Below, in pieces: positions 1,097 through 54,693 of a stretch of 64,000 nucleotides of DNA (position 1 is its first letter; each line of letters starts with the position of its first letter). A program made the position numbers and the translations under genes. The DNA comes from Luteibacter aegosomatissinici. GTDB lineage: Bacteria > Pseudomonadota > Gammaproteobacteria > Xanthomonadales > Rhodanobacteraceae. The stretch lies in assembly GCF_023078495.1 (NCBI RefSeq), contig NZ_CP095742.1, forward strand, positions 1,054,001 through 1,118,000, written 5' to 3'. The notes below the pieces were generated by a model, which was not told the DNA's origin, did no database searches, and worked only from the letters and a program-made list of their open reading frames with translations.

Positions 1097-1191
1097 GTAG
1101 GCGCCCACCCTGTGGGCGACATCTTTCGCGATGAGGTAGCAGAGCCTATGGCTCTTTCGCGAAAGGCATCGCTCACAGGGTGAGCTCCTAC
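1097..1191. repeat. Two-armed GTAG palindromic repeat (type I)
   Basis: Starts GTAGGCGCCCACCCTGTGGG and ends with the inverted arm finishing in GCTCCTAC, with CGCGA/TCGCG inner arms. The same layout recurs at 2004, 9612, 54561 and 62126. This is a degenerate copy (GGCGCC in the left arm, TGAG in the right). It resembles the REPIN/SMAG families that RAYT transposases mobilise; no RAYT gene lies in the window. Confidence 0.85.
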
Positions 1192-1193
1192 GT

Positions 1194-1227
1194 AAAAAGA
1201 AACCCGCCGATCGGCGGGTTTCTTTTT
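1194..1227. terminator. Bidirectional Rho-independent terminator between murA and the DUF3108 gene
   Basis: A perfect palindrome of two 17-nt arms: A-rich start, AACCCGCCGA / TCGGCGGGTT core, T-rich end. It gives a GC hairpin with a U-tract on both strands and separates the convergent murA and DUF3108 genes. The distal arm overlaps the last bases of the DUF3108 stop codon. Confidence 0.93.
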
Positions 1228-1924: not shown

Positions 1925-2003
1925 GCACCCGAGTTTAAACCGGGCGGCTGAACGCGGGGTCACCTGTGCGTGCGCCCGATGCCCCCCCAGATACCTCGCC
2001 CCT

Positions 2004-2098
2004 GTAGGAGCCCACCCTGTGGGCGACGCCGTTCGCGACCCCGCTGCAGGTCCTGTGACGACATCGCGAAAGATGTCGCCCACAGGGTGGGCTCCTAC
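2004..2098. repeat. Two-armed GTAG palindromic repeat (type I) overlapping the purN stop
   Basis: Near-perfect arms GTAGGAGCCCACCCTGTGGG at the left and the reverse complement at the right, flanking a short GC-rich spacer. The TAG stop of purN (minus strand) is the TAG inside the right-hand GTAGGAG arm. Confidence 0.92.
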
Positions 2099-2730
2099 AG
2101 GGCGGTGATGTCCAGCGGTGTGGTCAGGGGCGTGCCATCGAAGATGGGCTGGCCATTCCAGCGCAGGCGGCCGGTGGCGATGGCGCGGACCACGGCGGGC
2201 AGCAGCGTGTGTTCTTCGACCAGCAGTCGCTGGGCGAGGGTTTCTTCGGTATCCGCGGGGCCGACGGCAATGCGTGCCTGTGCGACGACGGGGCCGCCAT
2301 CGAGTTCGGCGGTGACGTAATGCACGCTGGCGCCGTGCTCGGTATCGCCGGCTTCGAGGCAACGGCGGTGCGTGTGCAAACCCTGGTACTTCGGCAGCAG
2401 GGAAGGGTGGATGTTGATCGCCCGGCCTTCCCAATCGGCGACCACGGCGGCATCGATGATGCGCATGTAGCCGGCGAGCACGAGCAGATCGGGCTTCGCC
2501 GCCGCCACCGCGCCGAACAGCGCGCGATCAAAGGACACGCGATCCGCATGATCCTTCGGGCTCATCGAGACCGTGGGGATGCCCGCATCACGCGCCACCT
2601 GCAACGCACCGGCCTTTGCCTTGTCGCTGCCCACCAGGACCATCTCGATCGGCAGCTGCGCCGCGATGAGCGCGGCCAGGTTGCTGCCGCGCCCGGAGGC
2701 GAGCGCGGCGACGCGCAGGGGGCGATCCAC
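2095..2730 (-). CDS. purN: Phosphoribosylglycinamide formyltransferase
   Basis: PurN formylates GAR with 10-formyl-THF in step 3 of purine synthesis. No ATG fits; the GTG eight bases after the purM stop gives 211 residues beginning VDRPLRVAALASGRGSNLAA, which matches the family length (212 in E. coli) and its N-terminal SGRGSN phosphate-binding loop. The catalytic block INIHPSLLPKYQGLHTHRR contains the expected Asn and His, and TAELDGGPVV contains the catalytic Asp. Co-transcribed with purM. The TAG stop is contributed by the GTAG repeat, so the last codons may have been reset when the repeat arrived. Confidence 0.95.
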   Translation of the reverse strand: MDRPLRVAALASGRGSNLAALIAAQLPIEMVLVGSDKAKAGALQVARDAGIPTVSMSPKDHADRVSFDRALFGAVAAAKPDLLVLAGYMRIIDAAVVADWEGRAINIHPSLLPKYQGLHTHRRCLEAGDTEHGASVHYVTAELDGGPVVAQARIAVGPADTEETLAQRLLVEEHTLLPAVVRAIATGRLRWNGQPIFDGTPLTTPLDITAL

Positions 2731-2738
2731 GAGCTGGC

Positions 2739-3776
2739 TCAGGCGATATGGACGCGCTCGTCGCCGCTGGCGGCAACGACCGAGCCGATGACCCACGACG
2801 AGAGGCCATGGGCGGCCAGGGCGGCCTTGGCGGCCTCCACCTGGCCCTTGTCGAGCAGCACGGTGAAGCCGATACCGCAGTTGAAGGTGCGCCACATTTC
2901 TTCGCGGGCCACGTTGCCTTCGCGCTGCAGCCACTGGAACACCGGCGGCAGTTCCCACGACGCGGCGTCGATGGAGAGGCCGAGGCCATCCGGCACGACG
3001 CGGATGATGTTTTCCTTCAGCCCACCGCCGGTGATGTGGGCCATGCCGTGCACATCGACCTTGCCAAGCAGCTCGAGGATCGGCTTGACGTAAAGGGTGG
3101 TCGGGGCCATGAGCGCATCGACGAGCTTCACGCCGCCCACGTCGGTATCCAGCGGCGAACCCGCGCGCTCCAGGATACGGCGGATCAGCGAATACCCATT
3201 GGAGTGCGGACCGGACGAAGCCACGCCCAGGATCACGTCGCCGGCCACGATCTTCGAGCCATCGTTCATCGCCGATTTCTCGACGGCGGCGACCGTGAAG
3301 CCGGCCAGGTCATACTCGCCCGGCGCGTACATGTCCGGCATTTCGGCGGTTTCGCCGCCGATCAGCGCGCAGCCTGCCAGCTCGCAACCGCGGGCGATGC
3401 CACCGACCACGGAGGCGGCGGTATCGACATCGAGCTTGCCGGTGGCGAAGTAGTCAAGGAAGAACAGCGGCTCGGCACCCTGGACCAGCACATCGTTGAC
3501 GCACATGCCGACGAGGTCGATGCCGATGGTGTCGTGGCGGCCCAGCTGCTGGGCCAGCTTCAGCTTGGTGCCCACGCCATCGGTACCGGAGACCAGCACG
3601 GGCTCCTTATAGCGGCCGGAAAGGTCGAACAGGCCGCCAAAGCCGCCCAGCCCGCCCATGACCTCCGGGCGGAACGTGCGCTTGACCATCGGCTTGATGC
3701 GCTCGACAAGGGCATTGCCGGCGTCGATATCGACACCCGCATCGCGGTAGGTGAGGGAGCCCTGGTCGGAGGACAT
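2739..3776 (-). CDS. purM: Phosphoribosylformylglycinamidine cyclo-ligase (AIR synthetase)
   Basis: PurM closes the imidazole ring of AIR in purine synthesis. The ATG chosen gives 345 residues starting [18 protein letters not shown], typical for the family; upstream in-frame codons are not family-like. Visible motifs are [15 protein letters not shown] (ATP/substrate loop), [11 protein letters not shown] and [11 protein letters not shown]. The gene is transcribed divergently from the DUF2066 gene, with about 130 bp between the starts, and leads into purN after 8 bp. Confidence 0.97.
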
Positions 3777-3908
3777 AAGCGGTTCCGGCACTGATGGAAA
3801 CGCGCAATGATAGCAGCAAGCCGGCCCCCGGATTGGGCCCTGCACGCGCTTTGGATGGACGCCATGCCAAGGTTTGGGCAGACTTCCCGCCTCCCCAGCA
3901 GCGATGCC

Positions 3909-4901
3909 ATGACTATGCGCGCAGCCCGTTCACTCGCCTTCCTGATGCTTCTCCTGCTGGCCGCCGTCGGTCCGGCAGTGGCTCAGACCGCGATGTACAC
4001 GGTATCCGTACCGGTGCCGGACACCAGCGCGTCGGTGCGCGACCAGGCATTCGCCAACGGCCTGACCCAGGTCCTGGCCCGGGCGACCAACGGCGCGGAC
4101 CCGCGTACCAAGCCGGGTTACGCCGATGCCATGAAGCAGCCGGGCGGCCTCGTCCAGCAGTACCAGTACCAGCGCACGGGGGGTGCCAATGGCGCCCCGC
4201 TGGCGCTGGAGATCACCTTCGACCCGGGCGCCATCCGCCGGGTCCTGGCCGTGGGTGATGCGGCCGCAGCCGCCCCGAAGCCCCCGGTCCTTGTGATTGC
4301 CCACGACGCGGCAGGCAAGCTGCTGAACCTGCAGGACCTGGCTCCGCTGGCCCAGATGGCCGATGCCCGCGGCTACCAGATCGTGACGCCCAAGGCCGAT
4401 ACGCCGGTGGACGCCAAGGGGATCGCCGCGGGCGATACCTCTGCGGTGGCCGGGGTAGCGCGCCAATACAACACGGCCACGGTGCTGGTCGGCACGGTGC
4501 GCGATGACGGCACGGACTGGACCCTGGTGAATGCCGGCCGCGTCGCCAACTGGTCCGACAGCGGTGAAGCCCGCGCGGCGCTGCTAAGCAACGGCGCCAA
4601 CGCCATGGCCGACAAGCTCGACCGTTCGTTCGCGGCCAATGCGGGCGGCAGCACCAGCGGCAAGGTATGGGTGTCCGGGCTGCGCTCGGCGTCCGACTAT
4701 GCGGGCCTGCTGGCCACCTTCACCAACGATCCATCGGTGAAGACCGTCGTGCCGGTCGGTGCGACGGCCGATGGCGTGCTTTTCAGCGTGAGCGCCAGCG
4801 CCCCGCTGGCCCGCCTGGTGGCCGGTTACGCCGCCGGCGGCCATGTGCTGGCAGCGGATGCGCACGACGGCGCCGACCTTGCCGTTCGCTGGGTGCCCTG
4901 A
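3909..4901 (+). CDS. DUF2066 domain exported protein
   Basis: A 330-residue protein with a clear signal peptide ([20 protein letters not shown], cleavage around AVAQ-TA). The body, [20 protein letters not shown] onward, has the layout of the DUF2066 family: an N-terminal alpha/beta region, a TolB-like [20 protein letters not shown] segment and a C-terminal domain. The function is not known. ATG at 3909 is chosen; a second ATG at 3915 is also possible. Three bases separate its stop from the AI-2E permease, so it heads a DUF2066-permease-hda operon that is commonly seen beside purMN in this order. Confidence 0.85.
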
Positions 4902-4904
4902 CGC

Positions 4905-6065
4905 ATGACCCACGATAATTCGCGCCGCTGGCAGATGCTGGCGCTGGTCGGCCTCGTCATTTTCGTGATCTGGCTGCTGGCACCGGTACTCATGCCGTTC
5001 GCCCTCGCCGCGATGCTGGCTTACCTGGGCGATCCCCTCGCCGATCGCCTGCAGCGGCTCGGCATGGGCCGTACCTGGGCGGTGAGCATCGTGTTCACGG
5101 TCATCATCATCATTTTCGTCGGCGTCATGCTGTTGCTGGTTCCGCTTATCCAGCGCCAGGTGTCCAACCTGATCGATAACCTGCCGCATTACGTGGAGTG
5201 GGCGCGTACCGTGGCGCTGCCATGGGTACAGCAGCGCCTGCACCTGGAGCCGGATACGTTCGATACGGACAAGGTCCTGGCGGCCATCCGTGAGCACATC
5301 GGCTCGATCGGCAGCATTGCCGCGCGTGCCATCACCCGTGTGACCCAATCGGGCATGGGCATCATCACCTGGATGACCAACGCGGTGCTGATCCCGGTCG
5401 TCGCGTTCTACCTGCTGCGCGATTGGGACACGATGATCGCGCACATCCAGCGCCTTATCCCGCGCTCGGTGGAACCGACCGTGGTGCGCCTGTCGCGCGA
5501 GTCGGACCAGGTGCTCGGCGCCTTCGTCCGCGGCCAGTTGCTGGTGATGCTGGCCCTGGGCGTGTTCTACGGCCTGGCCCTTACCCTTGTCGGCGTCTCG
5601 ATCGGCCCGCTCATCGGCATGATCGCGGGCCTGCTCAGCTTCGTACCGTACCTCGGTTTCATGATCGGCTTCGTGGCCGCGCTGGTGGCTGCGCTGGTGC
5701 AGTACGGCGACTGGACCCACGTGATCCTGGTGGGCGTGGTGTTCACCATTGGCCAGTTGCTGGAGGGCTACGTGCTGGTGCCCCGCCTGGTGGGCGGCAA
5801 GATCGGCCTGCATCCGGTCGCGGTCATCTTTGCCGTGCTCGCGGGTGGCCACTTGTTCGGCTTCCTTGGCGTGCTGCTGGCGTTGCCGGCGGCCTCGGTC
5901 GTGGTCGTGCTGTTGCGTTACGTCTTCGCCCGGTATCGCGAAAGCGACCTGTACAGGGAGCCCGCCACGCCGGATGGTCCACAGACGCTCGATGTCGAAG
6001 TGGACGTCGACGTGGTTGTGAACGAACACCGGGGCAAGCCGCCGCTTCCTGACGACCGCCCATGA
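4905..6065 (+). CDS. AI-2E family (PerM/TqsA-like) inner-membrane transporter
   Basis: A 386-residue polytopic membrane protein. Hydrophobic segments occur at the N terminus (MLALVGLVIFVIWLLAPVLM and following), after about residue 150, and as a dense C-terminal block (LGVFYGLALTLVGVSIGPL, GVVFTIGQLLEGYVLVPRLV), the usual AI-2E exporter/PerM topology. The C-terminal tail is acidic with a run of DVDVDV. Substrate cannot be read from sequence; some family members export autoinducer-2, others act as Na+/H+ antiporters. Its TGA overlaps the ATG of hda (ATGA), implying translational coupling. Confidence 0.9.
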   Translation: MTHDNSRRWQMLALVGLVIFVIWLLAPVLMPFALAAMLAYLGDPLADRLQRLGMGRTWAVSIVFTVIIIIFVGVMLLLVPLIQRQVSNLIDNLPHYVEWARTVALPWVQQRLHLEPDTFDTDKVLAAIREHIGSIGSIAARAITRVTQSGMGIITWMTNAVLIPVVAFYLLRDWDTMIAHIQRLIPRSVEPTVVRLSRESDQVLGAFVRGQLLVMLALGVFYGLALTLVGVSIGPLIGMIAGLLSFVPYLGFMIGFVAALVAALVQYGDWTHVILVGVVFTIGQLLEGYVLVPRLVGGKIGLHPVAVIFAVLAGGHLFGFLGVLLALPAASVVVVLLRYVFARYRESDLYREPATPDGPQTLDVEVDVDVVVNEHRGKPPLPDDRP

Positions 6066-6757
6066 GTACGCAGTTGCCCCTCGCCCTGCGCTGGCCACGT
6101 CGCCAGCGCTTCGAACATTTCCATGCTGGCGAGAACGCGGCGGCGGTCGAGGCCGTGCGTGCTGCCGCCGCTGATGCGAGCGCGCCGTGGGTGTTTGTGT
6201 CGGGCCCGTTGGGCAGTGGCCGCACGCACCTGTTGGTAGCCGCCTGCCAGGCGGCCATCGATGCGGGCCTCAGCGCCCAGTACCTCCCGCTCGCGGGACT
6301 GCATGGCACGCGCGCCGCGGCGATCCGCGGCATGGCCGGCAGCGACCTTCTTGCTATCGACGACCTGGATGCCATCGCGGGCGATCCGGATGGCGAGCAT
6401 GCGCTGTTCGATACCTTCAACAGCTACAAGGCGGAGCACCGCACGTTGTTGTTCGCCGCCAACGTGGCGCCTGCCGCGCTTGGCATCGTCTTGCCCGACC
6501 TCCGCTCGCGGCTGGGCTCGCTGACGCAGGCGGTGTTGAAACCATTGAGCGATGCGGAACGCCGCCAGGCATTGCGCGCCCACGCCGCGGATCGGGCCAT
6601 CGAACTCGACGACACCGTGCTCGACTGGCTGTTCGCCCACCACGCGCGCGACCTTGGCGCGCTGCTGGACCTGCTCGATACACTCGATCGCGCGACGCTG
6701 GCGGCCCAGCGCCGCGTGACCGTGCCGTTTCTGAAGAACCTTCTCAAAACCGACTAA
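6062..6757 (+). CDS. hda: DnaA regulatory inactivator Hda
   Basis: Hda promotes hydrolysis of DnaA-bound ATP when tethered to the DNA-loaded beta clamp (RIDA), preventing re-initiation. At 231 residues it is a DnaA-like AAA+ domain without the DNA-binding domain IV. The N terminus carries a clamp-binding-type QLPLAL motif. The P-loop variant SGPLGSGRTHLL and the Walker B region LLAIDDLDAI are present. It starts inside the stop of the AI-2E gene and ends 4 bases into the convergent metallophosphoesterase gene. Confidence 0.93.
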   Translation: MSTQLPLALRWPRRQRFEHFHAGENAAAVEAVRAAAADASAPWVFVSGPLGSGRTHLLVAACQAAIDAGLSAQYLPLAGLHGTRAAAIRGMAGSDLLAIDDLDAIAGDPDGEHALFDTFNSYKAEHRTLLFAANVAPAALGIVLPDLRSRLGSLTQAVLKPLSDAERRQALRAHAADRAIELDDTVLDWLFAHHARDLGALLDLLDTLDRATLAAQRRVTVPFLKNLLKTD

Positions 6758-7755
6758 ACGTCGATCTCGTCCAGCAGCGTCATCTGCGACGGATCGTTGT
6801 TGCGCACGCCGTACACCTTCACCTTGCCGGCCTCACGCCAGTGCTCGACGATCAGGTAGGTGCGCTGCGATGCCGAGCCGCTGGTGAAGTGAGGCACGTA
6901 GCTCGCCCCACCGGTGCGGATGTGTTCCACGCCCATATCCTTGTGATAGTGCCCCGAGAAGATGGCTTTTACGCCTGCGGCAGCGGCCTTGGCCGCCAGA
7001 GAATTCGCTGCATCGCGCCAGGGCGCACGCCAGCCTTCGGGCTTGTGAACGTGGACGAAGGTGAAGCGCGCCCGCCCGCTCTCGATCGCCTTGCGTGACT
7101 GTTCCAGCACCCATTGGGTGGAGGGCGTCACGTTGTAGCTCTTAGGCTGCAACAGGCCGCCATACGTCGACATGTCCACGGCGTAATCGTGTGCGTTGTT
7201 GAGCTGAAGGTGGACGGTGTTTTTCCAGCCATCCGCCTTGAACGCATACGCCCAGCTTCCTTCGTTGATCACCCGGTTGCCTTCGGCGCGCGTTCGCAGA
7301 TCGAAGGCGAGAACGCGGTCGCCAAGGCTTTTTACATGCTGGGTCAGCAGGTCGAGCGAGCCGGTGGCGCAGTAGGCGAGGCGGCACGCGCTGTGGACCG
7401 TCAGGTTGTTTTCGTAATCGTGATTGCCCAGGCCGAAGTAGTAATTCTTGCCAAGGATGCCGAACAGGTCGTACATCACTTGGTGCTCGAACACGATGCC
7501 GTTGGACGTGAGATCGCCGTTGATGATGACGGGGATGGCCTGCAGCGGGTGCGCACGGCGGTATGCCGCGATGCTTTCGTACTGCTCGCGGACGAGCTTT
7601 TCGGCCAGCACGGGGTCGGTGTCGCCGCCGTTGTCGGTGACGTCCGTCCAGGGGTACTGCGGATCGGACGTGACCACCATGCGCTCAGGCGTTTCAGCCT
7701 GCGCTGCGGCAGTGAACAGGGTGGCCGCGAACAGGGCCAGGCGAATCGGGGACAT
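6754..7755 (-). CDS. Secreted calcineurin-like metallophosphoesterase
   Basis: A 333-residue exported phosphoesterase with signal peptide MSPIRLALFAATLFTAAAQA. Dinuclear metal-site motifs appear in order: SDPQYPW (degenerate first Asp motif), NGDLTSNG, GLGNHDYEN, FVHVHKP and FSGHYHKDMG. These match the calcineurin-like superfamily; the substrate is not predictable. It is preceded by a perfect 13-bp-arm palindrome 73 bp upstream of the start. It converges on hda with a 4-bp overlap of the two stop codons. Confidence 0.9.
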   Translation of the reverse strand: MSPIRLALFAATLFTAAAQAETPERMVVTSDPQYPWTDVTDNGGDTDPVLAEKLVREQYESIAAYRRAHPLQAIPVIINGDLTSNGIVFEHQVMYDLFGILGKNYYFGLGNHDYENNLTVHSACRLAYCATGSLDLLTQHVKSLGDRVLAFDLRTRAEGNRVINEGSWAYAFKADGWKNTVHLQLNNAHDYAVDMSTYGGLLQPKSYNVTPSTQWVLEQSRKAIESGRARFTFVHVHKPEGWRAPWRDAANSLAAKAAAAGVKAIFSGHYHKDMGVEHIRTGGASYVPHFTSGSASQRTYLIVEHWREAGKVKVYGVRNNDPSQMTLLDEIDV

Positions 7756-7827
7756 GGCACATTCCTTGTGTCATTGGGGGAGCGCGGCGTCGGCCGCGAA
7801 TGACACGTTAGCGAGGGAATGGCCGAG

Positions 7828-7856
7828 ATGGAATGAGGGCAATGCCCTCATTCCAT
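7828..7856. promoter_or_regulatory. Perfect 13-bp inverted repeat upstream of the metallophosphoesterase gene
   Basis: Arms ATGGAATGAGGGC and GCCCTCATTCCAT separated by AAT. It lies between the suhB stop and the metallophosphoesterase start, both on the minus strand. There is no T-run on the minus strand beyond it, so it looks more like an operator or RNA hairpin than a canonical terminator. Function is inferred only. Confidence 0.55.
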
Positions 7857-7879
7857 GTAAGCGAACACCTACAGCGCGA

Positions 7880-8683
7880 TCAGACGCCGAGCAGGCGTGG
7901 CGTGGCGTTGGCGCTGATGACTTCGGTCATCGCGGCAGCCACCTTATGGTTTCCGGCGACGATATTGCCGTTCTCCGGCAGGCCTTCACGGCCGGCAAAA
8001 TCGTTGTAGACGCCGCCTGCCTCGCGCACGAGCAGCGCACCGGCAGCCATGTCCCACGGCTGCAGGCCCGGCTCGAAGTAACCATCCAGGCGGCCCGCGG
8101 CCACGTAGGCCAGGTCGAGCGCGGCCGAGCCCATGCGACGGATATCTTCCGCCTCCTGGAGCAGGGCCTGGGTGATCTGCAGCTGCGATTCGAGGTGGTT
8201 GCGCACGCGGTACGGGTAGCCCGTGCCGAGCAGCGCACCGGCGATGCCATCGCGGCGGCCGACGCGGATGCGGCGATCGTTGAGGTAGGCGCCATCGCCC
8301 TTGCTGGCGGTGAACAGTTCATCGCGCAGCGGATCGAAGACGACGCCGTACACCGGCTCACCCTTTTCGACCAGGGCAATGGAGACGGAGAAGTGCGGGA
8401 TGCCGCGCAGGTAGTTATGCGTGCCGTCCAGCGGATCGATCACCCAGGTGAGCGGGCCCTTGCCGATCTGGCCCGATTCCTCGGCCATGATCGCGTGGGT
8501 GGGGTAGGCGCGGCGGAGTTCCTTGACGATCTCGGCTTCGGCGAGGCGATCGACCTCGGAGGCGAAGTCCATCCGCTGCTTCTCGACGACCGAAAGGCCT
8601 TCGATGCGATTCATGTAGCGCAGGATGATGTTTCCTGCAGAGCGCGCGGCGCGCGCCGCGACGTTGACGGCGGGTCTTGGCAT
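7880..8683 (-). CDS. suhB: Inositol-1-monophosphatase family protein SuhB
   Basis: A 267-residue Mg2+-dependent phosphatase. SuhB hydrolyses inositol phosphates and in E. coli also acts in rRNA transcription antitermination. The chosen ATG gives MPRPAVNVAARAARSAGNII, aligning with the SuhB N terminus; an earlier in-frame start would add an unusual extension. Metal-binding motifs are MAEESG, WVIDPLDGTHNYLRG and LQPWDMAAGALLVREAGG. Length equals that of E. coli SuhB. Divergent from trmJ. Confidence 0.95.
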   Translation of the reverse strand: MPRPAVNVAARAARSAGNIILRYMNRIEGLSVVEKQRMDFASEVDRLAEAEIVKELRRAYPTHAIMAEESGQIGKGPLTWVIDPLDGTHNYLRGIPHFSVSIALVEKGEPVYGVVFDPLRDELFTASKGDGAYLNDRRIRVGRRDGIAGALLGTGYPYRVRNHLESQLQITQALLQEAEDIRRMGSAALDLAYVAAGRLDGYFEPGLQPWDMAAGALLVREAGGVYNDFAGREGLPENGNIVAGNHKVAAAMTEVISANATPRLLGV

Positions 8684-8821
8684 GGGGATCGGCTTGGCAA
8701 AAGAACAGGGGAAGCGGTCGAAAGCCGCGTCGGTCGGGCAGTTTAACACCGGGGGCGCGTTCGCCCAAGTCACGGGCCGGTGTAGACTTTCCGGTCCCTA
8801 AAGAACCGGCTCCCCCTGTCC

Positions 8822-9604
8822 ATGGCCCTGCCGCCCCTCCACGACCGCTTCCGCTTTGTCCTGGTCAGGACCTCCCACTCGGGCAATATCGGCTCGGCGG
8901 CCCGCGCCATCCGGACCATGGGCTTCGATCGCCTGACCCTGGTCGCCCCGCACCGCTTTCCGGACCCGGAAGCCACCGCCCTGGCGGCGGGTGCGGATGA
9001 CGTACTCGGCCAGGCCGCGGTGGTGGACGATCTGGTGGCCGGCCTGGCGGGCACCACTTTCGCCCTGGGCTTGTCGGCCCGCCGCCGTGGCGTGAACCTG
9101 CCCGAGCTCGATCCGCGCGAAGGTGCCGCCCAGGCCATCGCCGCCGCCCGCAGGGGCGAAAACGTCGCCCTGGTGTTTGGCAACGAGCGTACGGGTCTGG
9201 AAAACGACGAGCTCTCGCGTTGCCACGCCATGGTCCGCATCCCCAGCGTGGACGATTTCAGCTCGCTGAACCTGTCGCAGGCCGTGCAGGTGGTCGCGTA
9301 CGAGATTCGTACGGCCCTGCTCGCGGACGAGGCGGCGGCCACGCCGGCCCCGGCGCAGGCCGAGGGCGAGGTGGACCCGGATGAAGTGCCCGCCGATGCG
9401 GAGCAGGTGGAGCGGTTCTTCACCCACTTGGGCGAGACCCTGGACGATATCGAGTTCCATAAGGGCCGCTCGCCGGTCACGATCATGCTGAAGCTGCGCA
9501 AGCTCTTCCTGCGCGCCCGCCCCGAGCTCCGCGAACTGCGCATCCTGCACGGCATCCTGGCCGATGCGCAGCGCATGGCTGGCCTGGCCAAAAAGCGCGA
9601 ATAA
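8822..9604 (+). CDS. trmJ: tRNA (cytidine/uridine-2'-O-)-methyltransferase TrmJ
   Basis: A SPOUT-class methyltransferase that 2'-O-methylates position 32 of tRNA. At 260 residues it shows the N-terminal VLVRTSHSGNIGSAARAIRT block and the knot motifs VALVFGNERTGLENDELSRC and RIPSVDDFSSLNLSQAVQVV. The C-terminal helical extension (HLGETLDDIEFHKGRSP...) is typical of TrmJ rather than of TrmL. The divergent trmJ/suhB arrangement is common in gammaproteobacteria. Confidence 0.94.
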   Translation: MALPPLHDRFRFVLVRTSHSGNIGSAARAIRTMGFDRLTLVAPHRFPDPEATALAAGADDVLGQAAVVDDLVAGLAGTTFALGLSARRRGVNLPELDPREGAAQAIAAARRGENVALVFGNERTGLENDELSRCHAMVRIPSVDDFSSLNLSQAVQVVAYEIRTALLADEAAATPAPAQAEGEVDPDEVPADAEQVERFFTHLGETLDDIEFHKGRSPVTIMLKLRKLFLRARPELRELRILHGILADAQRMAGLAKKRE

Positions 9605-9611
9605 AAAATGC

Positions 9612-9707
9612 GTAGGAGCCCACCCTGTGGGCGACAGTTTTTCACGGCAGCGCGACAGGACCTGTTCGTGCTCGCGAAAAACTGTCGCCCACAGGGTGGG
9701 CTCCTAC
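9612..9707. repeat. Two-armed GTAG palindromic repeat (type I) overlapping the ExoD-like gene stop
   Basis: Arms GTAGGAGCCCACCCTGTGGG (left) and the exact reverse complement (right), inner arms AGTTTTTC / GAAAAACT. This is one of the best conserved copies in the window. The TAG in the right arm is the stop codon of the neighbouring minus-strand gene. Confidence 0.93.
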
Positions 9708-10312
9708 AGGATGTCGCGGAAGAATTTGAGCAGGGCGTGGCTGAAGGTGGCCGAGAGGGCGACCATGGCGCCCGTTGCGATCCACACCGCCAGCACCAGG
9801 ACGCCATCGCGCTCGATCAGCGCAATGGCGAAGGCGATGAGCATGGCGCCGAACAGGTAGTTGGTGAACGGGATAGGCAGCGCCAGCAGGATGCCTATCA
9901 GGATCATGACCGCACCCGAGACGAAGGTGAAAGGGCGGCGGGTCAGGCGTTGAAGGCGCGGCTTGCACACCTTCTCGATGCGGCGGGTGATCGGCGTGAT
10001 CCGGTCGAGGAAACGCAGCAGGCCCTCGCGTGACATGGTTCGCCGTTTGAGGAATCCCGGAATCCAGGGATGCTCCAGGCCGATCAACATCTCCAGGCCC
10101 AGAGCCACCACGAGCACGCCCATGACGCCGCCGATGCCGAGCGGGACGGGGATGAAATTGGGGATGGCCAGCAGGAGCAGCAGGAAGCCGAACGCGCGGC
10201 GCTTGAGCGGTTCCAGCAGCTGTTCAACCGTGATCCGGTCCTCCGGCGCGGACACGGCGGCCGCCCGGAGGAGGGCGGCGGTCTTGTCTTCGCGGGCTTC
10301 ACTGACGTTCAT
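9704..10312 (-). CDS. ExoD-family (exopolysaccharide synthesis) membrane protein
   Basis: A 202-residue membrane protein starting MNVSEAREDKTAALLRAAAV. Hydrophobic stretches RAFGFLLLLLAIPNFIPVPL, GGVMGVLVVALGLEMLIGL and GAVMILIGILLALPIPFTN fit the ExoD family; the RAFGFLLLLLAIPNFIP signature is characteristic. ExoD was named for an effect on rhizobial exopolysaccharide; its biochemical role is unclear. Its TAG stop belongs to the adjacent GTAG repeat, so the C terminus (SHALLKFFRDIL) was probably set by the repeat. Confidence 0.82.
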   Translation of the reverse strand: MNVSEAREDKTAALLRAAAVSAPEDRITVEQLLEPLKRRAFGFLLLLLAIPNFIPVPLGIGGVMGVLVVALGLEMLIGLEHPWIPGFLKRRTMSREGLLRFLDRITPITRRIEKVCKPRLQRLTRRPFTFVSGAVMILIGILLALPIPFTNYLFGAMLIAFAIALIERDGVLVLAVWIATGAMVALSATFSHALLKFFRDIL

Positions 10313-16794: not shown

Positions 16795-16879
16795 ACATCG
16801 ATACGTTCGACGACGTGACGAGACGAGGGTGCATGCCGTGGCACGCCGCCGCGGCCAACGACGACTCGGGGAGCCGCCC

Positions 16880-18532
16880 ATGCACGACGCCACGCCACTC
16901 ATTGCCACCATCGTCGGTGGCCTTGTCCTCGCCTTCATTTTTGGCGCCATTGCCAATCGCATACGGCTTCCGGTGATCGCGGGCTACCTGGTCGCTGGCG
17001 TGGTCGCCGGCCCATTTACACCTGGCTACGTCGCCGATGCGCATATCGCGCAGGAACTCGCGGATCTCGGCGTCATCCTGCTTATGTTCGGCGTGGGCCT
17101 GCACTTCTCGCTAAAGGACCTGCTCGCGGTAAAGAGCATCTCGATCCCCGGGGCCGCCGTGCAGATGGGCGTCGCGACGGGCCTGGGCATGCTGCTTGGC
17201 TGGGCGCTGGGCTGGCCCGTCGCGCAGGGTTTCGTCTTCGGCCTGGCCCTTTCGGTGGCGAGTACGGTGGTGCTGCTGCGTGCGATGGAAGAGCGCCGCC
17301 TGCTCGATAGCGACCGCGGCCGCATCGCCGTCGGCTGGCTCATCGTGGAAGACCTCGCCATGGTGCTGGCGCTGGTGCTGTTGCCTGCGCTGGCCGGGTT
17401 CCTCGGCGATGGGAAGGGTGATGCGCCGGGCATGGGCGAACTGGTGCAGACGGTGGCCATCACCATCGGCAAGGTTGTGCTGTTCGTCGCTGTCATGCTG
17501 ATCATCGGCAAGCGCGCCATCCCCTGGATGCTGCAGGCCGTCTCCGGCACCGGATCGCGCGAGCTGTTCCGCCTGGCCGTGCTTGCCATCGCGTTGGGCG
17601 TGGCGTTCGGTGCCGCGCATCTGTTCGATGTGTCGTTCGAACTCGGCGCGTTCTTCGCCGGCATGATGATGGGTGAATCCAAGCTCTCGCAGCAGGCCGC
17701 CGAGGAAACGCTGCCGTTGCGAGATGCGTTCGCCGTGTTGTTCTTTGTTTCGATCGGCATGCTGTTCAACCCGCACGTGCTGGTGCAGCACCCGTGGCTG
17801 GTGCTGGCGGCTTGCCTCATCATCATCGTGGGTAAATCGGTCGCCGCCTTCGTCATCGTGCGCATGTTTGGCCGCCCGACCAAGACCGCGCTCACCATTG
17901 CCACCAGCCTGGCGCAGATTGGCGAGTTCTCTTTCATCCTGGCCGGCCTGGGTGTATCGCTCGGCCTGCTCAGTGAAGAAGCGCGCGACATCCTGCTGGC
18001 GGCCGCCATCGTGTCCATCCTGGTGAACCCGCTGCTGTTCGTGGCGCTGGACAAGTGGGTGGCGAAGCATGATTCGGATGCACCTGATGAGCATCCCGAT
18101 ATGCGCGGGCACACGGTGCTTGTCGGTTTCGGCTGGGTCGGCCGCAGGGTGTTCTCCGACCTGCGCGCCACCGGCGCGCCCATCCTGGTGATCGAAACCG
18201 ATGAGGATGCGGTGCGTGAACTCCGCGAGCAGGGCACGGCCGATGTCGTCATCGGCAATGCGGCCGCGGCGCCCGTGCTCGCCGAAGCGAACCTCGCGGC
18301 GGCGCGGGCCCTGGTCGTGGCGGTGCCGGATCCGTTCGAAGCGGGGCAGGTGGTGCGTGCCGCCCGGGCACTGCGGGCCGATCTGCCCATCGTCGCCCGT
18401 GCCCATTCCGAGGAGTGCGTGAACCACCTGGCGGGCCTGGGCGCCAGCGAGGTCGTCTACGGTGAGCAGGAACTTGCGCACAGCATGTTCGAGGCCTGCC
18501 GCCCGAAGCCCGCGGCGACAAGCGGCCACTGA
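16880..18532 (+). CDS. CPA2 family cation/H+ antiporter with TrkA-N domain (YbaL/KefB-like)
   Basis: A 550-residue inner-membrane antiporter. The N-terminal ~390 residues hold about 12 hydrophobic segments with motifs of the Kef/RosB branch (RLPVIAGYLVAGVVAGP, FELGAFFAGMMMGES). A C-terminal RCK/TrkA-N Rossmann domain follows (GHTVLVGFGWVGRRVFSDL with GxGxxG, then VIETDEDAVRELREQG). Glutathione- or redox-gated K+ efflux is the usual inference for this branch. ATG 16880, preceded by GGGGAGCC, is chosen over an upstream in-frame start that lacks a membrane-compatible sequence. The first 75-bp direct repeat starts 9 bp past its stop. Confidence 0.9.
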   Translation: MHDATPLIATIVGGLVLAFIFGAIANRIRLPVIAGYLVAGVVAGPFTPGYVADAHIAQELADLGVILLMFGVGLHFSLKDLLAVKSISIPGAAVQMGVATGLGMLLGWALGWPVAQGFVFGLALSVASTVVLLRAMEERRLLDSDRGRIAVGWLIVEDLAMVLALVLLPALAGFLGDGKGDAPGMGELVQTVAITIGKVVLFVAVMLIIGKRAIPWMLQAVSGTGSRELFRLAVLAIALGVAFGAAHLFDVSFELGAFFAGMMMGESKLSQQAAEETLPLRDAFAVLFFVSIGMLFNPHVLVQHPWLVLAACLIIIVGKSVAAFVIVRMFGRPTKTALTIATSLAQIGEFSFILAGLGVSLGLLSEEARDILLAAAIVSILVNPLLFVALDKWVAKHDSDAPDEHPDMRGHTVLVGFGWVGRRVFSDLRATGAPILVIETDEDAVRELREQGTADVVIGNAAAAPVLAEANLAAARALVVAVPDPFEAGQVVRAARALRADLPIVARAHSEECVNHLAGLGASEVVYGEQELAHSMFEACRPKPAATSGH

Positions 18533-18541
18533 ACAAGGCCC

Positions 18542-18616
18542 AGCGCACGCATTCGCAAGACACTGCCGGACACACTGCCCTAACGTTTCGCTGGCTAACG
18601 TAAACAGGTTAGCCAA
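18542..18616 (+). repeat. Left copy of a 75-bp perfect direct repeat flanking the peptidase insert
   Basis: The sequence from AGCGCACGCATTCGCAAGAC to GGTTAGCCAA is identical to 20225-20299. Near its 3' end it contains TGGCTAAC-N8-GTTAGCCA (18592-18615), an inverted pair around an 8-bp spacer that looks like a tyrosine-recombinase core site. The flanking bases differ outside the 75 bp. Confidence 0.93.
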
Positions 18617-18900
18617 TTGACCAACGTCAGGAGTCGCTCCTGCGGTTAGCATGCGTCACCGCATTGTGGAATTCCGGGTCAGTGTCGCCGTTACGTGGCG
18701 CAACTGCGTGCATGCTCCATTGTTGGAATTCTCCGCCAATGGAGCGCTCAGAATCACAGCCTAAATTTGGCTTAATATATCGTAAGTACTTGTTATATTG
18801 TGATTTGTTGTGCTTCTTGTCATCTTGAACGACGCCATGTGCAGGTTGTAGAAGTTCTCTAGATGCCGGGGCTGGCCCGGCCATGACGTTGGAGAGGCAC
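18617..18900 (+). promoter_or_regulatory. AT-rich leader of the peptidase insert
   Basis: No gene seen. It holds CAGGAG-TCG-CTCCTG (about 18627-18641), a hairpin with 8-bp arms CTCCATTG / CAATGGAG (18715-18722 and 18737-18744), two GGAATTC copies, and an AT-rich stretch around 18765-18800 (TTAATA then TATATT about 16 bp later) that could be a promoter for the peptidase gene. The A+T richness is visibly unlike the surrounding genes. Confidence 0.4.
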
Positions 18901-20073
18901 ATGTCGATCAAGGATTTCGTCACTGCTACTGCGCGGCCGTTGCGGTCTAGGTTGCTGACGCAAGAAATATACGGGCGCCTGTTCAACTCGAGCAGCCTTC
19001 CATTCACAATGGAATACCAGCCTCAGACCAATTGGTGCTGGGCAGCGACATCGAAGAGCGTCTCCCACTTCTACTGGCGCACGAGCACATGGACACAATG
19101 CAGTGTCGCGGGTGCCGAGCTTGGCAGAAGCGATTGTTGCGATAGCAGCGTTCCGAGTCAGTGTAACGTTACCTGGTATCTCGATCGGGCTCTGCGACGC
19201 ACACGCAATTTTCGACAGATGACCGGCCAAGTTACGTTCGCGCAGATCCAAACGGAGATCAATGCGGGAAGGCCCGTAGGCCTCCGGACGCAATGGGCTG
19301 GAGGTGGCGGGCACTTTCTCGTTGTTTACGGCTATGCAACGGAAGGTGTCTCAAATTATTTTTACCTTGCCGATCCCATCTACGGCACGAGCGTGCTTTC
19401 GATTGAGGACTTCAAAGTTCGGTATCAAGGCTCAGGATCTTGGACACACACCTATTTCACCGAGAGTTTCGTAGGCATGAAATTTAAGGTAACACTCCCA
19501 GATGTTCGAACCATCAACGCGATCTGGCATGCGCGTCCATTGCTGGAGCTGGATCGGCCGACGAGTGATGCCGATCGACCCGGGCGTGCCGATGCTTCTG
19601 AAATCGAGGTTGGATCCGCCTTGGAGATCTATGCGCTGGGCCTTGATTCACTGTTGCACAACGCGCCGAGCGCTGCGGTTTCGGTTGGACTTCGGGTATA
19701 TGAGATTAGCGATGGGAACCCGCAGGCCTACTATGACGTCGACCTCCAAGATCCGAATAACCCTAGGGTGACCTCTGTATCCGGTTCAGAGAGCCATATT
19801 CGGAGCGTACGACATGCCCTCGACGCGGCATTGGCAGTCGATTTCGCCGGTGCCGAAGGTGACTACGAAGTTGATGTGCGGCTTCTCAGGGTGCCCGCAC
19901 TGAACTTCGAAGCAATATGGCTCCACCTGCCGCCGGGCAGTAGCGATGAGATTGTTCCGCTACGCCCCTTCGGTCGCCTCGCGGCTTTCAAGAAGGTTTC
20001 ATGGGCTAGCGCCCTCGGACAGTTACGTGAGCATGCCGCTTCAGTGGGGACGGACGATACATTGGGTGGGTAA
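18901..20073 (+). CDS. Papain-like cysteine peptidase, AvrRpt2-like (family C70)
   Basis: A 390-residue protein. GGAGAGG six bases upstream supports ATG 18901 over the ATG at 18883. The catalytic region is near the N terminus: QPQTNWCWAATS (Cys46), GGGGHFLVVYGY (His138) and YLADPIYG (Asp158). Spacing Cys-His 92 and His-Asp 20 is close to that of AvrRpt2, the plant-immunity-targeting type III effector that defines C70. Extra cysteines occur at 67, 79, 80 and 88. Residues about 205-390 form a second region that I do not recognise. No signal peptide is visible. Codon and base use is more A/T-rich than that of neighbours, and the gene sits between 75-bp direct repeats, pointing to acquisition. 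Role as an effector, toxin or housekeeping protease is open. Confidence 0.85.
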   Translation: MSIKDFVTATARPLRSRLLTQEIYGRLFNSSSLPFTMEYQPQTNWCWAATSKSVSHFYWRTSTWTQCSVAGAELGRSDCCDSSVPSQCNVTWYLDRALRRTRNFRQMTGQVTFAQIQTEINAGRPVGLRTQWAGGGGHFLVVYGYATEGVSNYFYLADPIYGTSVLSIEDFKVRYQGSGSWTHTYFTESFVGMKFKVTLPDVRTINAIWHARPLLELDRPTSDADRPGRADASEIEVGSALEIYALGLDSLLHNAPSAAVSVGLRVYEISDGNPQAYYDVDLQDPNNPRVTSVSGSESHIRSVRHALDAALAVDFAGAEGDYEVDVRLLRVPALNFEAIWLHLPPGSSDEIVPLRPFGRLAAFKKVSWASALGQLREHAASVGTDDTLGG

Positions 20074-20143
20074 CGCCCTCGTCGTCTTGGTAACTTTGGC
20101 TGGCGCCGTAGGGTGTCGCGCCCGACTTTTGGCCAGTCCCTGA
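20033..20143 (+). CDS. Possible short lipoprotein-like ORF overlapping the peptidase 3' end
   Basis: 36 residues beginning MPLQWGRTIHWVGNALVVLV, with a hydrophobic core and TLAGAVGC resembling a weak lipobox (Ala rather than Leu at -3), ending 10 residues later. It overlaps the peptidase by 41 bp in another frame. It could be a remnant of a second gene in the insert or chance; no Shine-Dalgarno sequence is evident. The bases from 20144 to 20224 hold nothing recognised. Confidence 0.2.
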   Translation: MPLQWGRTIHWVGNALVVLVTLAGAVGCRARLLASP

Positions 20144-20224
20144 AGAGGCGTTCTTTCACACGATAGTTGCTCACCGATAGCCTTCCATTGGGCAACCTCC
20201 TTTCTGCATGGCCAGATCCAGGCA

Positions 20225-20299
20225 AGCGCACGCATTCGCAAGACACTGCCGGACACACTGCCCTAACGTTTCGCTGGCTAACGTAAACAGGTTAGCCAA
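20225..20299 (+). repeat. Right copy of the 75-bp perfect direct repeat
   Basis: Identical to 18542-18616. It lies 16 bp upstream of the GH15 start and its Shine-Dalgarno sequence, so this copy, or the fused copy before insertion, is probably the native leader of the GH15-zwf operon. The TGGCTAAC-N8-GTTAGCCA core is at its 3' end. Confidence 0.93.
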
Positions 20300-20315
20300 G
20301 CGAAACGGAGGCAAG

Positions 20316-22142
20316 ATGGCATCCCGGATCGAAGATTACGCCATGCTCGGCAACTGCCGAAGTGCGGCACTGGTGGCGCGCAACGGCTCAATCGACTGGT
20401 TATGCCTGCCGCGATTCGATTCCCCGGCGTGCTTCGCGGCGCTGCTGGGCGATGAAAACAACGGCCGCTGGGCGCTGGCCCCGGCCGATCCCGATGCCAC
20501 CTGCACCCGCCAGTACCTCGATGGCAGCCTGGTGCTCGAAACCACCTGGACCACCGCCACGGGCAAGGCCCGGGTGATCGATTTCATGCCGTTCGCCGGT
20601 GAGCAGGTCGGCATTACCCGTATCGTCGAGGGCATCGAGGGCCGGGTGGATTTCGAGAGCCACCTCACGGTGCGCTTCGACTATGGCAATGCGCTGCCAT
20701 GGGTGAATTCCCACGATGACGGGTCGCTAACGGCCATCGCCGGCCCCGACATGCTGGTGCTGCGTACGCCCGTCGAAATGGAGGGCGAGGGCATGGAAAG
20801 CGTCGGCCGGTTCAGTGTCGGCAAGGGCGATGCGACGCCGTTTGTCATGGCGTGGGGCCCGTCACACCTCGCGCCGCCCGAACCGCTGGATCCCGCCCGG
20901 GCGTTGAAGGATTCCCTGGACTACTGGGAAGGCTGGTCGAATCGCTGCAACGGCAGTGGCGAGTGGAGCGATATCGTCCGCCGCTCGCTCATCGTGCTCA
21001 AGGGCCTTAGCTACGAGCCCACCGGCGGTATCGTGGCCGCGCCCACCACCTCCCTGCCGGAACAGTTCGGTGGCGAGCGCAACTGGGATTACCGGTTCTG
21101 CTGGGCACGCGACGCCACGTTCGTGCTTTCCGCGCTGGTCAATGCGGGCTACCACGATGAGGCCAGCGCGTGGCGCGACTGGGTCCGTCGCGCCGTGGCG
21201 GGCTCGCCTGGGCAATTGCAGGTGCTGTACGGCCTGGCCGGTGAGCGCCGCCTGGAGGAATACGAGATCACCTGGCTGAACGGCTACGAGGGCGCGCGCC
21301 CCGTGCGCGTGGGCAACGCGGCCTCGAACCAGTTCCAGCTGGATATCTTTGGCGAGCTGATCGGCGCGTTTTCGCACGCGATGAAACACGGCGTGGTGCT
21401 CCACCCCGAGGCCGATAACGTCCAGGCCGTGTTCCTCGACCATCTGGCGGCGATATGGCGCCATCCCGATGAAGGCATCTGGGAGATTCGCGGCGAGCCC
21501 CGGCACTTCGTCCACTCCAAGGTCATGGCGTGGCTGGCCTTCGCAAAGGCGGCCGAGCAGAAGCGCGACGGGATCGATCCGCATTACGTGAAGCGCTGGC
21601 GCAGCATCGCCGACGAGATCAAGGCCGATATCCTGGCCAAGGGCGTGGACCCGGTGCGCGGCTGCCTTACCCAGTCCTACGGATCCACCGAGCTCGATGC
21701 GAGCCTGCTGCTGGTGACGCTGACCGATTTCCTGCCGCCGGATGATCCGCGCATCGTGGCCACGGTCAAGGCGATCGAGGAGGACCTGATCGTGGGCGGC
21801 TTCGTGCGCCGCTACGACACCCGCTCGGGTGTCGATGGCTTGCCGCCGGGCGAGGGCGAGTTCCTGCCGTGCAGCTTCTGGCTGGTCGAAAATTACGTGA
21901 TGCTGGGCCGGATGGACGAGGCCCGGGCCATGTTTGAGCGCCTTATCGCACTCACGAACGACCTCGGCCTGCTCGCGGAGGAGTACGATCCCCGGACGAA
22001 ACGTCTCTTGGGCAATTTCCCACAAGCCTTTTCGCATGTCGCGTTGGTTAATGCCGCCTTTAGTCTGGCGAATGGTTACAGCGCGACAGCCGACATCCAC
22101 GCTACCCCCGAATCCACCGTTCCCCAAGGAGTCAGTGCATGA
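20316..22142 (+). CDS. Glycoside hydrolase family 15 protein (glucoamylase/trehalase-like)
   Basis: A 608-residue cytosolic-type GH15 enzyme; no signal peptide. The start ATG follows ACGGAGG. The N terminus [20 protein letters not shown] is typical of the bacterial GH15 group. The (alpha/alpha)6 barrel shows [20 protein letters not shown] with the WARDA block, and [15 protein letters not shown] and LLAEEYDP carrying the expected acidic catalytic residues. Members hydrolyse terminal alpha-glucosidic bonds; some actinobacterial relatives are trehalases. The last bases overlap zwf (ATGA), so glucose released could feed straight into the oxidative pentose phosphate route. Confidence 0.92.
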
Positions 22143-23957: not shown

Positions 23958-23959
23958 TT

Positions 23960-24025
23960 GTAGGAGCGCGCTTGTGGGCGATCCGGTCTGCCGCAAGCAC
24001 ACACCGCGCGCGAGCGCGCTCCTAC
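23960..24025. repeat. Two-armed GTAG palindromic repeat (type II, short)
   Basis: Left arm GTAGGAGCGCGCTTGTGGGC, right arm GCGCGCGAGCGCGCTCCTAC. It is about 66 bp, shorter than type I elements, with a GCGCGC core instead of CCCACCCTGTGGG. The same type recurs at 25935 and as single arms at 33380, 54812 and 61625. Confidence 0.88.
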
Positions 24026-24036
24026 AAGGATGTTTG

Positions 24037-25008
24037 TTAGTGTGAGGAAACAAACGCCGAGTCGGCGAAGGCTTCGGGTAATGCGAAGCTGTTGCGCATC
24101 CGTCGTGCTTCGGCGGAGGGTGATGAACCAAACAGGCGCTTGAACTCGCGGCTGAATTGCGACGGGCTGGTGTAGCCTACCGCGTGGCTCGCGGCCTCTG
24201 CCGTCATGCCCTGGCGCACCATGAGCAGACGCGCCTGGTGCAGGCGTGTCGACTTCACGTATTGCATGGGCGATACATTCGTAATCGCCTTGAAATGACT
24301 GTGGAAGCTGGGTGCGCTCATGCCGGCTTCTTCGGCTAGCTCGGCGACATCGAGCGGGCGCGGGTACTCGGCATGGATGAGTCGCAGCGAGCGGCTGATC
24401 TTGCCGAACTGGCCGCGCGTGGCCAGGGCTTCGCGCATGGAGGCACCCTGGGCACCGGTGAGTACTCGGTAGTAGATCTCGCGCAATAAACCTGGGCCGA
24501 GCACCGCGGCATCGAGCGGCTTGTGCATGGCTTCGAGGAAGCGCAGGACGGTGTCCTGCATGGCTCCGTCCATGCGCGTGGACAACATGCTTCGCGGTGC
24601 CTGCGCCGTTGTGACATCGCCAGATGCATCGATCTGGTCGGCGAGTTCGGCTGCCAGCGCGAAGTCAAGATGCAGGTATAGCGCGAGCAGGGGATGCTCC
24701 GGGGTCGCATCCGTTTCCATGGTGAAGGGGACGGGCACCGATACGGCCAAGTAGTGGTCTTCGTCGTACACGTACACCTGGTCGCCGAAGTAGCCGCGCT
24801 TGCGGCCCTGGCAGACGATGACGATGCCGGGGTCGTAGAGCACCGGGGTGCGGGCGAGCGGGCGGTCGGAGCGCAGAATGCGGACGCTGGGGATGGCGGT
24901 GAGGTTGTAGCCCTCCTCCGGGCCTAGCGCATGAAGGAGCGCCACCGTGCGCTCCCGGGTGGGGCTGCGTGGCGTCGTGTACTTCGGGGTGACGGGGCGC
25001 TTTCTCAT
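24037..25008 (-). CDS. AraC family transcriptional regulator
   Basis: 323 residues from the ATG at 25008 (an upstream TTG in frame is less likely). The N-terminal AraC_N-type cupin region (RILRSDRPLARTPVLYDPGI, VYVYDEDHYLAVSVPVPF) is followed by a C-terminal double helix-turn-helix (PLDVAELAEEAGMSAPSFHS, then MTAEAASHAVGYTSPSQFSR). This AraC_N/HTH_18 layout is common in regulators beside a divergently transcribed oxidoreductase. The SDR gene starts 92 bp away on the other strand, so it is the probable target. Effector unknown. Confidence 0.93.
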   Translation of the reverse strand: MRKRPVTPKYTTPRSPTRERTVALLHALGPEEGYNLTAIPSVRILRSDRPLARTPVLYDPGIVIVCQGRKRGYFGDQVYVYDEDHYLAVSVPVPFTMETDATPEHPLLALYLHLDFALAAELADQIDASGDVTTAQAPRSMLSTRMDGAMQDTVLRFLEAMHKPLDAAVLGPGLLREIYYRVLTGAQGASMREALATRGQFGKISRSLRLIHAEYPRPLDVAELAEEAGMSAPSFHSHFKAITNVSPMQYVKSTRLHQARLLMVRQGMTAEAASHAVGYTSPSQFSREFKRLFGSSPSAEARRMRNSFALPEAFADSAFVSSH

Positions 25009-25100
25009 AGGAATAGGCAAGAAAAGTAGCGAATTTCAGCTTATGGAGGAGGTCTGCCGAGTTCATTATGCATCCCAAGGCACCTCAGTGGAGACGCGAC

Positions 25101-25931
25101 ATGACGAGCAAAAAGACCCTTCTCATTACCGGTGTAAGCAGCGGCTTCGGCCGGGCGCTGGCGCAGGAGGCGCTGGCCGCTGGCCACACGGTCGTGGGCA
25201 CCGTCCGCAGCGAAGATGCCCGGCGCGAGTTCGAATCGCTGCACGCCCAAGCGGTGGGCCGCATCCTCGACGTTACCGATTTCGATGCGATTGAAGGCGT
25301 TGTGGCCGAACTCGAGGCAAGCACGGGCCCGATCGACGTGCTGGTCAACAACGCCGGCTACGGCCACGAAGGCATCATGGAGGAATCGCCGATGGCGGAT
25401 CTTCGTCGGCAGTTCGACGTGAACGTGTTCGGCGCCGTGGCCATGATGAAGGCTGTGCTGCCCTACATGCGCGAACGCCGCCGTGGCCACATCCTCAACA
25501 TCACCTCGATGGGCGGCCACATCACGATGCCCGGTATTACCTATTACTGCGGCAGCAAGTTCGCGCTGGAGGGCATTTCCGAGGCGCTGGGCAAGGAAGT
25601 CGCCGCGCTGGGGATTCATGTGACGGCGGTGGCGCCGGGATCCTTCCGCACCGATTGGGCAGGCCGCTCCATGGTCCGCACGGCGCGCACCATCAGCGAT
25701 TACGACGCCATCTTCGATCCGATCCGCAAGGCGCGCGAGGAGAAGAGCGGTAAGCAACTGGGTGACCCGGTGAAGGCGGCGCGGGCCATGCTGGCGGTGA
25801 TCGACGCCGCGAACCCACCGGCGCATCTGCTACTGGGCAGCGATGCGTTGAAGCTGGTGCGTGACAAGCTCGCCTCGTTCGACGCATCGATCAGTGAGTG
25901 GGAACGCCTGACTGTATCGACCGACGGCTAA
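25101..25931 (+). CDS. Short-chain dehydrogenase/reductase
   Basis: A 276-residue classical SDR. TLLITGVSSGFGRALAQEAL contains the TGxxxGxG cofactor loop. NNAGYGHEG is the NNAG motif, NITSMGG supplies the Ser, and YYCGSKFALEG is the YxxxK catalytic pair. The ATG at 25101 is used as it directly precedes TSKKTLLITG. Divergent from the araC gene, which probably controls it. The substrate is not evident; similar 'oxidoreductase' SDRs accompany AraC_N regulators in many proteobacteria. Confidence 0.93.
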   Translation: MTSKKTLLITGVSSGFGRALAQEALAAGHTVVGTVRSEDARREFESLHAQAVGRILDVTDFDAIEGVVAELEASTGPIDVLVNNAGYGHEGIMEESPMADLRRQFDVNVFGAVAMMKAVLPYMRERRRGHILNITSMGGHITMPGITYYCGSKFALEGISEALGKEVAALGIHVTAVAPGSFRTDWAGRSMVRTARTISDYDAIFDPIRKAREEKSGKQLGDPVKAARAMLAVIDAANPPAHLLLGSDALKLVRDKLASFDASISEWERLTVSTDG

Positions 25932-25934
25932 CCT

Positions 25935-26000
25935 GTAGGAGCGCGCTTGCGCGCGATGGGTGCTCGCGGCAGCGTCGATCGCGCGCGAGCGCGCTCCTAC
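25935..26000. repeat. Two-armed GTAG palindromic repeat (type II) overlapping a small-gene stop
   Basis: GTAGGAGCGCGCTTGCGCGC left arm and GCGCGCGAGCGCGCTCCTAC right arm. The TAG in the right arm is the stop of the small membrane protein on the minus strand. The left end is 4 bp from the SDR stop. Confidence 0.92.
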
Positions 26001-26176
26001 AAAGCGCGGCGCAACAGCACCACGAATATCGCGATTGGAACCGCCAGCAGCAGCCATGCAGCGGGCTGCCAAGCCGGGCTGGCTAACAGCGCGATGAACA
26101 GGCCGGCGAGCACGCAGGCTGCCATCGCCACGGGGAGCGCGATCAGGCCGCGAGGCCGTTGGCTAGGCCGGCTCAT
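25997..26176 (-). CDS. Small two-helix membrane protein, last gene of the iron operon
   Basis: 59 residues: MSRPSQRPRGLIALPVAMAA then two hydrophobic spans (VAMAACVLAGLFIALLAS and AWLLLAVPIAIFVVLLRR). The ATG overlaps the stop of the PepSY gene (ATGA), so it is translationally coupled to it. Function unknown; similar small membrane proteins trail PepSY genes in siderophore operons. The TAG stop is supplied by the GTAG repeat. Confidence 0.7.
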   Translation of the reverse strand: MSRPSQRPRGLIALPVAMAACVLAGLFIALLASPAWQPAAWLLLAVPIAIFVVLLRRAL

Positions 26177-54560: not shown

Positions 54561-54654
54561 GTAGGAGCCCACCCTGTGGGCGACATCTTCTCGCCGAGCA
54601 CCCAAGCCCTGCGGCGGTGTCGCGAAAGCTGTCGGCCACAGGGTGGCCTCCTAC
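54561..54654. repeat. Two-armed GTAG palindromic repeat (type I) between elements A and B
   Basis: GTAGGAGCCCACCCTGTGGG left arm; right arm slightly diverged (CCACAGGGTGGCCTCCTAC). It sits inside the A-B inverted pair, as the 62126 copy sits inside the C-D pair. Confidence 0.9.
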
Positions 54655-54693
54655 GACGGTATTGCGCACCAGCAGCGAGCTCGCCCGCACGCC

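Follow-up and report, generated by a model that had tools for sequence, protein, structure and literature searches.

A 1.6-kb foreign segment with one protease gene, apparently captured once beside a GH15 gene of Luteibacter aegosomatissinici between two copies of the gene's leader

In the part of PMC3240628 considered here, which concerns Escherichia coli and laboratory conjugation, a PCR product diagnostic of duplication was obtained from 56 of 60 clones, sequencing of 14 clones showed duplications of 109-950 bp within the homologous segment, and the authors explained these by a circular molecule that had integrated through a single crossover. The locus of Luteibacter aegosomatissinici analysed here resembles this insertion-duplication in that foreign DNA is flanked by direct copies of a homologous host segment, but its copies are shorter, at 75 bp, and it is a natural rather than a laboratory product. 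The same source describes homology-facilitated illegitimate recombination (HFIR), whose combination of one homologous side with one illegitimate junction could yield the structure seen here; in the four HFIR clones listed in that source, however, the target had suffered deletions, whereas host sequence is duplicated at this locus. Tandem duplications made by transformation, as reported in the part of PMC3784515 considered here, arise between repeats and span about 100-900 kb; they were rejected as a model for the locus, being the product of a different process. No paper on the locus was found by title in the open-licence literature on Luteibacter.

The window, that is, the whole 64-kb stretch of DNA that was analysed and to which the positions of the locus refer, contains two copies of a 75-bp direct repeat at exactly 18542-18616 and 20225-20299, both on the forward strand and 100% identical, as an earlier note on this DNA had described. 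A perfect pair of 75-mers should not arise by chance in 64 kb (about 5e-34 under a simple match model). A whole-genome search (4,994,364 bp in a single contig) located the repeat at these two places only, so it is not a common interspersed sequence, and no copy accompanies another cargo. Between the copies lies an insert of 1608 bp (18617-20224, forward strand) with a GC content of 55.3% against 65.4% for the window; when 624 windows of 1608 bp were compared at steps of 100, the one with the lowest GC content started 16 bp left of the insert. The insert is unique in the genome, its five other matches being chance-level pieces of 18-33 bases. One long gene, encoding a peptidase, occupies most of it, so the description of an A/T-richer segment with one clear gene holds. 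Five smaller open reading frames of 65-151 aa gave no Pfam match, and no recombinase or transposase was seen among the insert reading frames scanned with Pfam, in agreement with the earlier note as to the recombinase. No terminal inverted repeats were seen at the insert ends. A DDE-type transposon or insertion sequence was rejected, given the lack of inverted ends and of a transposase in the scanned insert reading frames and a duplication of 75 bp. At the left end of the insert (18617-18660), a small hairpin, CAGGAG-TCG-CTCCTG, is followed by the 7-mer GGTTAGC.

Both neighbours of this structure are native genes on the forward strand. On the left, a gene with Na+/H+ exchanger and TrkA-N domains (Pfam PF00999 and PF02254; hereafter the antiporter) extends from 16829 to 18532 and, on the right, a GH15 glycoside hydrolase gene (PF00723 and PF19291) extends from 20316 to 22142. 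Between the end of the right repeat copy and the GH15 ATG at 20316 there are 16 bp, and a GGAGG follows the copy at a distance of 7 bp; the copy thus adjoins the Shine-Dalgarno sequence, as had been claimed.

The 75 bp can be identified as native GH15 leader sequence, since they align at GH15 in the four closest congeners (G010, G007, G013 and G001) with 82-90% identity. In all four, the local match starts at base 4 of the repeat and the leader is single-copy; only G007 gave a further significant hit, which arises because the hairpin matches its own reverse complement. Of 101 genomes searched with a 116-base query comprising the leader and the start of GH15, 13 others matched once and the host alone matched twice, several of these matches covering the GH15 start only and the leader of distant congeners being too diverged for copy counts. 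Judged by this alignment, the right copy occupies the native position of the leader. The sequence to the left of the left copy is also native, consisting of the antiporter end and a short spacer that is partly alignable with G013, and the repeat begins no more than a few bases from the point where leader conservation sets in. The motif CTAACG-N9-CTAMCGT, which is present in the GH15 leader of 12 of the 22 genus genomes with the locus, may be an operator or an unusual promoter; in the host genome it is limited to the two repeat copies, so no regulon was found.

Regarding the position of GH15 in the genus, a close ortholog was identified in 22 of 23 genomes, the host included, and a distant match only in the remaining one (G006, 80% complete). 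The antiporter lies directly upstream of GH15, at less than 200 bp, in 19 of the 21 other congener loci, so that the genus typically has the antiporter first, then the leader, then GH15. There are relatives in which one leader links the two genes. Such empty sites, for which the earlier note had proposed to search, bear out its view that the segment is an insertion without which the antiporter and GH15 would be joined through one copy. In G001 and G010, about 7.8-7.9 kb of other genes lie between the antiporter and the GH15 leader (locus L065, positions 1120-9000, and locus L066, reverse), encoding a TonB receptor, a BNR-repeat protein and a GH43 protein, with a GntR-type regulator scanned in G010. 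Both genomes carry this block with a single leader and no duplication. The gene content of the antiporter-GH15 interval varies within the genus.

The leader also contains a marked dyad. The inner part of it, TGGCTAAC-N8-GTTAGCCA, is present in both repeat copies and was read from the sequence at 18592-18615 in the left one. It belongs to a longer dyad with the outer arms CGTTTCGC and GCGAAACG. Both of these are found in full at the right copy only, where the whole leader hairpin of 16 pairs (20267-20307, forward strand) precedes the GH15 ribosome-binding site; the left copy is a duplicate without the outer 3' arm. The fold of 20250-20318 reached -32.2 kcal/mol with a z-score of -6.3 and none of 200 shuffles as good. 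For equal stretches of 106 nt, the z-score was -4.0 at the right copy (0 of 200 shuffles) versus -1.8 at the left copy (8 of 200). In an alignment of five close species, the pairing of the hairpin is kept in 83.8% of cells, and the arms of the dyad are perfect in G007 and imperfect in G010, G013 and G001. Covariation is weak: double changes affect 2 of 16 pairs and come from a single sequence, this level is attained by 28 of 500 shuffles, and a slide by -1 is equal or higher on the covariation measures. Rfam returned no match. A leader hairpin or an operator is the simplest reading of this dyad. The earlier note had seen in it the shape of a tyrosine recombinase core. Although each copy does contain the dyad, it forms the inside of the GH15 leader hairpin, a larger structure that the note had not mentioned, so a recombinase core becomes an unnecessary, if still conceivable, explanation.

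The gene carried by the insert encodes a papain-like cysteine peptidase of C70/C39-like type (18901-20073, forward strand, an open frame of 390 aa); if translation began at the upstream ATG at 18883, the product would have 396 aa. Two Pfam models exceed their cut-offs, PF12385 (C70) with 38 bits (cut-off 19) and PF13529 (C39-like) with 30.8 (cut-off 24). The C70 family owes its name to AvrRpt2, an effector of a plant pathogen. Residues C10, H102 and D122, located in the NWCWAA, GGGGH and DP motifs, are invariant in 17 of 17 aligned proteins, and we take this Cys, His and Asp to be the catalytic triad. The protein thus shares the motifs of the C70/C39-like peptidases, but at 390 aa it has a conserved second half outside the coverage of those two models. 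NCBIfam gave no match, and no solved structure matched the peptidase alignment. A possible promoter at 18772-18799 (forward strand) agrees with the consensus at 9 of 12 positions, a quality at which 0.8 sites are expected by chance in the region. The left leader copy sits 284 bp upstream of the gene.

At E<=0.001, a search with the peptidase retrieved 340 proteins; among the best 120 of these, the top identity was 52% over the full query and the longer relatives include scattered ones from Nitrosospira, Methylocaldum, Phycicoccus and Pyrinomonadaceae. At the same threshold, 10 of 233 family genomes gave matches, namely the host and nine genomes outside the genus, the latter covering at most 166 of 396 residues with 27-37% identity. 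No congener match was found in this search of 233 family genomes, in which 20 congeners were listed without a match and the other two, absent from the matching genomes, were presumably covered as well; the possibility raised beforehand that all relatives carry both repeats and the peptidase is therefore contradicted, the leader being single in the four closest. The peptidase alignment retrieved only the host itself from a class sample of 369 genomes (E<=1e-30), and the host plus two partial matches, 3 of 398 genomes, from a phylum sample (E<=1e-40). A search of the genome_contigs collection with the peptidase revealed no relative. In the plasmid collection, 13 records had partial protein matches, all below 60% identity; the phage collection had no protein match, and viral contigs yielded three partial relatives with 25-33% identity. 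At the DNA level, a family-wide search matched the insert in 21 of 233 genomes including the host, the other 20 over only 21-64 bases and none of them a congener, and the plasmid and phage collections gave no match.

Taken as a whole, the host appears to have acquired 1.6 kb of foreign DNA with one protease gene, by a one-off capture rather than through a mobile element. Our leading explanation, in which we place middling confidence, is a one-off horizontal capture in which integration relied on homology and left the leader in duplicate. We infer the integration route throughout. A related strain would have had the peptidase gene upstream of the leader, in the way that other genes stand there in two congeners, and a donor fragment ending inside the leader hairpin would have entered the host strain. 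The fragment may then have circularised and undergone a single crossover through the leader homology or, by a second route, may have been joined by homology on the right and by an illegitimate event on the left. Either route would place a leader copy on both sides and let GH15 keep its own complete leader.

Several observations argue for such a capture. First, the repeat is host leader sequence that is native to the site and single in the four closest relatives. Secondly, no congener matched the peptidase among the genomes searched, and the GC content of the insert is low. Thirdly, the arrangement in G010 and G001, with genes standing before an unduplicated leader, is by analogy the kind of layout that a donor would require. 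The start of the repeat, so near to where leader conservation begins, agrees modestly with a donor insertion that ended there, and the E. coli duplications of PMC3240628 provide a precedent. Against the capture, family protein and DNA searches of 233 genomes found no donor with the order peptidase, leader, GH15, and a homology of 75 bp is short for RecA-dependent exchange. The complete identity of the copies also counts against it, since it implies that the donor was conspecific or that the copies were later homogenised.

The main rival, which we hold to be possible but doubtful, is capture at a staggered double-strand break, in which the leader was cut at two points separated by 75 nt, one of them inside the palindrome, followed by fill-in and end joining of a foreign linear fragment. 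Perfect repeats would then form without any homology of the donor, and the complete identity of the copies follows automatically. The genome encodes Ku, no terminal inverted repeats were seen, and one breakpoint falls in a strong hairpin; LigD, however, was absent among the six reading frames scanned near Ku, 75 nt is a long stagger, and the coincidence of the left edge of the repeat with the leader edge would be due to chance. In the part of PMC3443670 considered here, short direct repeats from staggered-break repair were proposed for intron gain in Daphnia; the same part reports no such excess in Drosophila.

We judge it unlikely that the segment is a non-autonomous mobile element, which would have integrated as a 1683-bp circle with an attachment site matching the GH15 leader, through a tyrosine recombinase supplied in trans. 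The scan for integrases suggested by the earlier note was productive in part: six Phage_integrase proteins are encoded in the genome, so a tyrosine recombinase acting in trans is possible, but no integron integrase exceeded its cut-off. Two of the six also match the integron-integrase model below the cut-off, and these we infer to be probably XerC and XerD. Beyond the available integrases, the hints at an element are weak, namely the dyad with its 8-bp arms and 8-nt centre, and the 7-mer GGTTAGC of the repeat's right arm, which recurs once in the insert, at 18644, 27 bases from the left end. These are offset by the position of the dyad within a native leader hairpin, by the variation of its arms in three of the four close relatives, and by the G010 and G001 blocks, which occupy the same place without duplication. 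Furthermore, the genome contains one insertion and none was found in congeners, the insert DNA lacks a match in the plasmid and phage collections, and no recombinase-like reading frame was seen among those scanned in the insert. A narrower version, in which a minimal 1.68-kb single-gene element without its own recombinase integrates at a conserved gene-leader hairpin, its circle carrying a copy of the leader, seems very improbable to us; were it true, each insertion would rebuild the host leader on both sides and leave the downstream gene intact.

The integron-type gene cassette with an attC-like end, also entertained in the earlier note, has next to no probability: GTTAGCC, as it stands in the repeat, does match the R' core GTTRRRY at six of seven positions and forms the end of one loose core pair (18528-18614), but full-consensus R''/R' pairs (RYYYAAC/GTTRRRY) number zero on either strand of 18441-20400, where pairs with at most one mismatch per core number 11 per strand, no integron integrase in the genome exceeds the TIGR02249 cut-off, and the repeat itself is part of the host's GH15 leader.

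The biology of the locus is probably ordinary. It is of value as a clean natural footprint of the acquisition of a single gene, in which both repeat edges can be placed with single-base precision, the segment that was duplicated is recognisable as a host leader and relatives carry empty sites. It also illustrates how a gene can retain its complete leader when DNA is inserted upstream of it.

Other repeats were sought in the window and in 800 kb of further stretches, 864 kb in all or 17.3% of the genome, by scans based on exact 20-base seeds, from which seeds seen at least 30 times were left out; spacing was limited to 12 kb in one scan and to 60 kb within a block in the other. Within this scope, no other perfect direct repeat of at least 40 bp was listed. 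The scan with 12-kb spacing gave ten other pairs: those at 313241 and 313309 are REP-like palindromes, the pair at 204101 is REP-like by its reading-frame signature, the pair at 416875 lies in paralogous genes, the pair at 336196 measures 153 bp with 89.5% identity and, of the remaining five, three belong to listed repeat families. The scan with 60-kb spacing gave three REP-like pairs and one tRNA-Gly pair. In the latter, two tRNA-Gly(GCC) genes stand in a 101-bp repeat of 94% identity, 17.2 kb apart (host C1:1608926-1626204; L197 and L198), with a Phage_integrase gene just beyond them, and the interval is probably an ordinary tRNA-targeted island. REP-like palindromic elements starting with GTAGGAGC recur in the window and in the sampled stretches; in the window, they are located at 1097-2101, 9612-9710, 23959-26002, 54561-54864 and 62126-62224.
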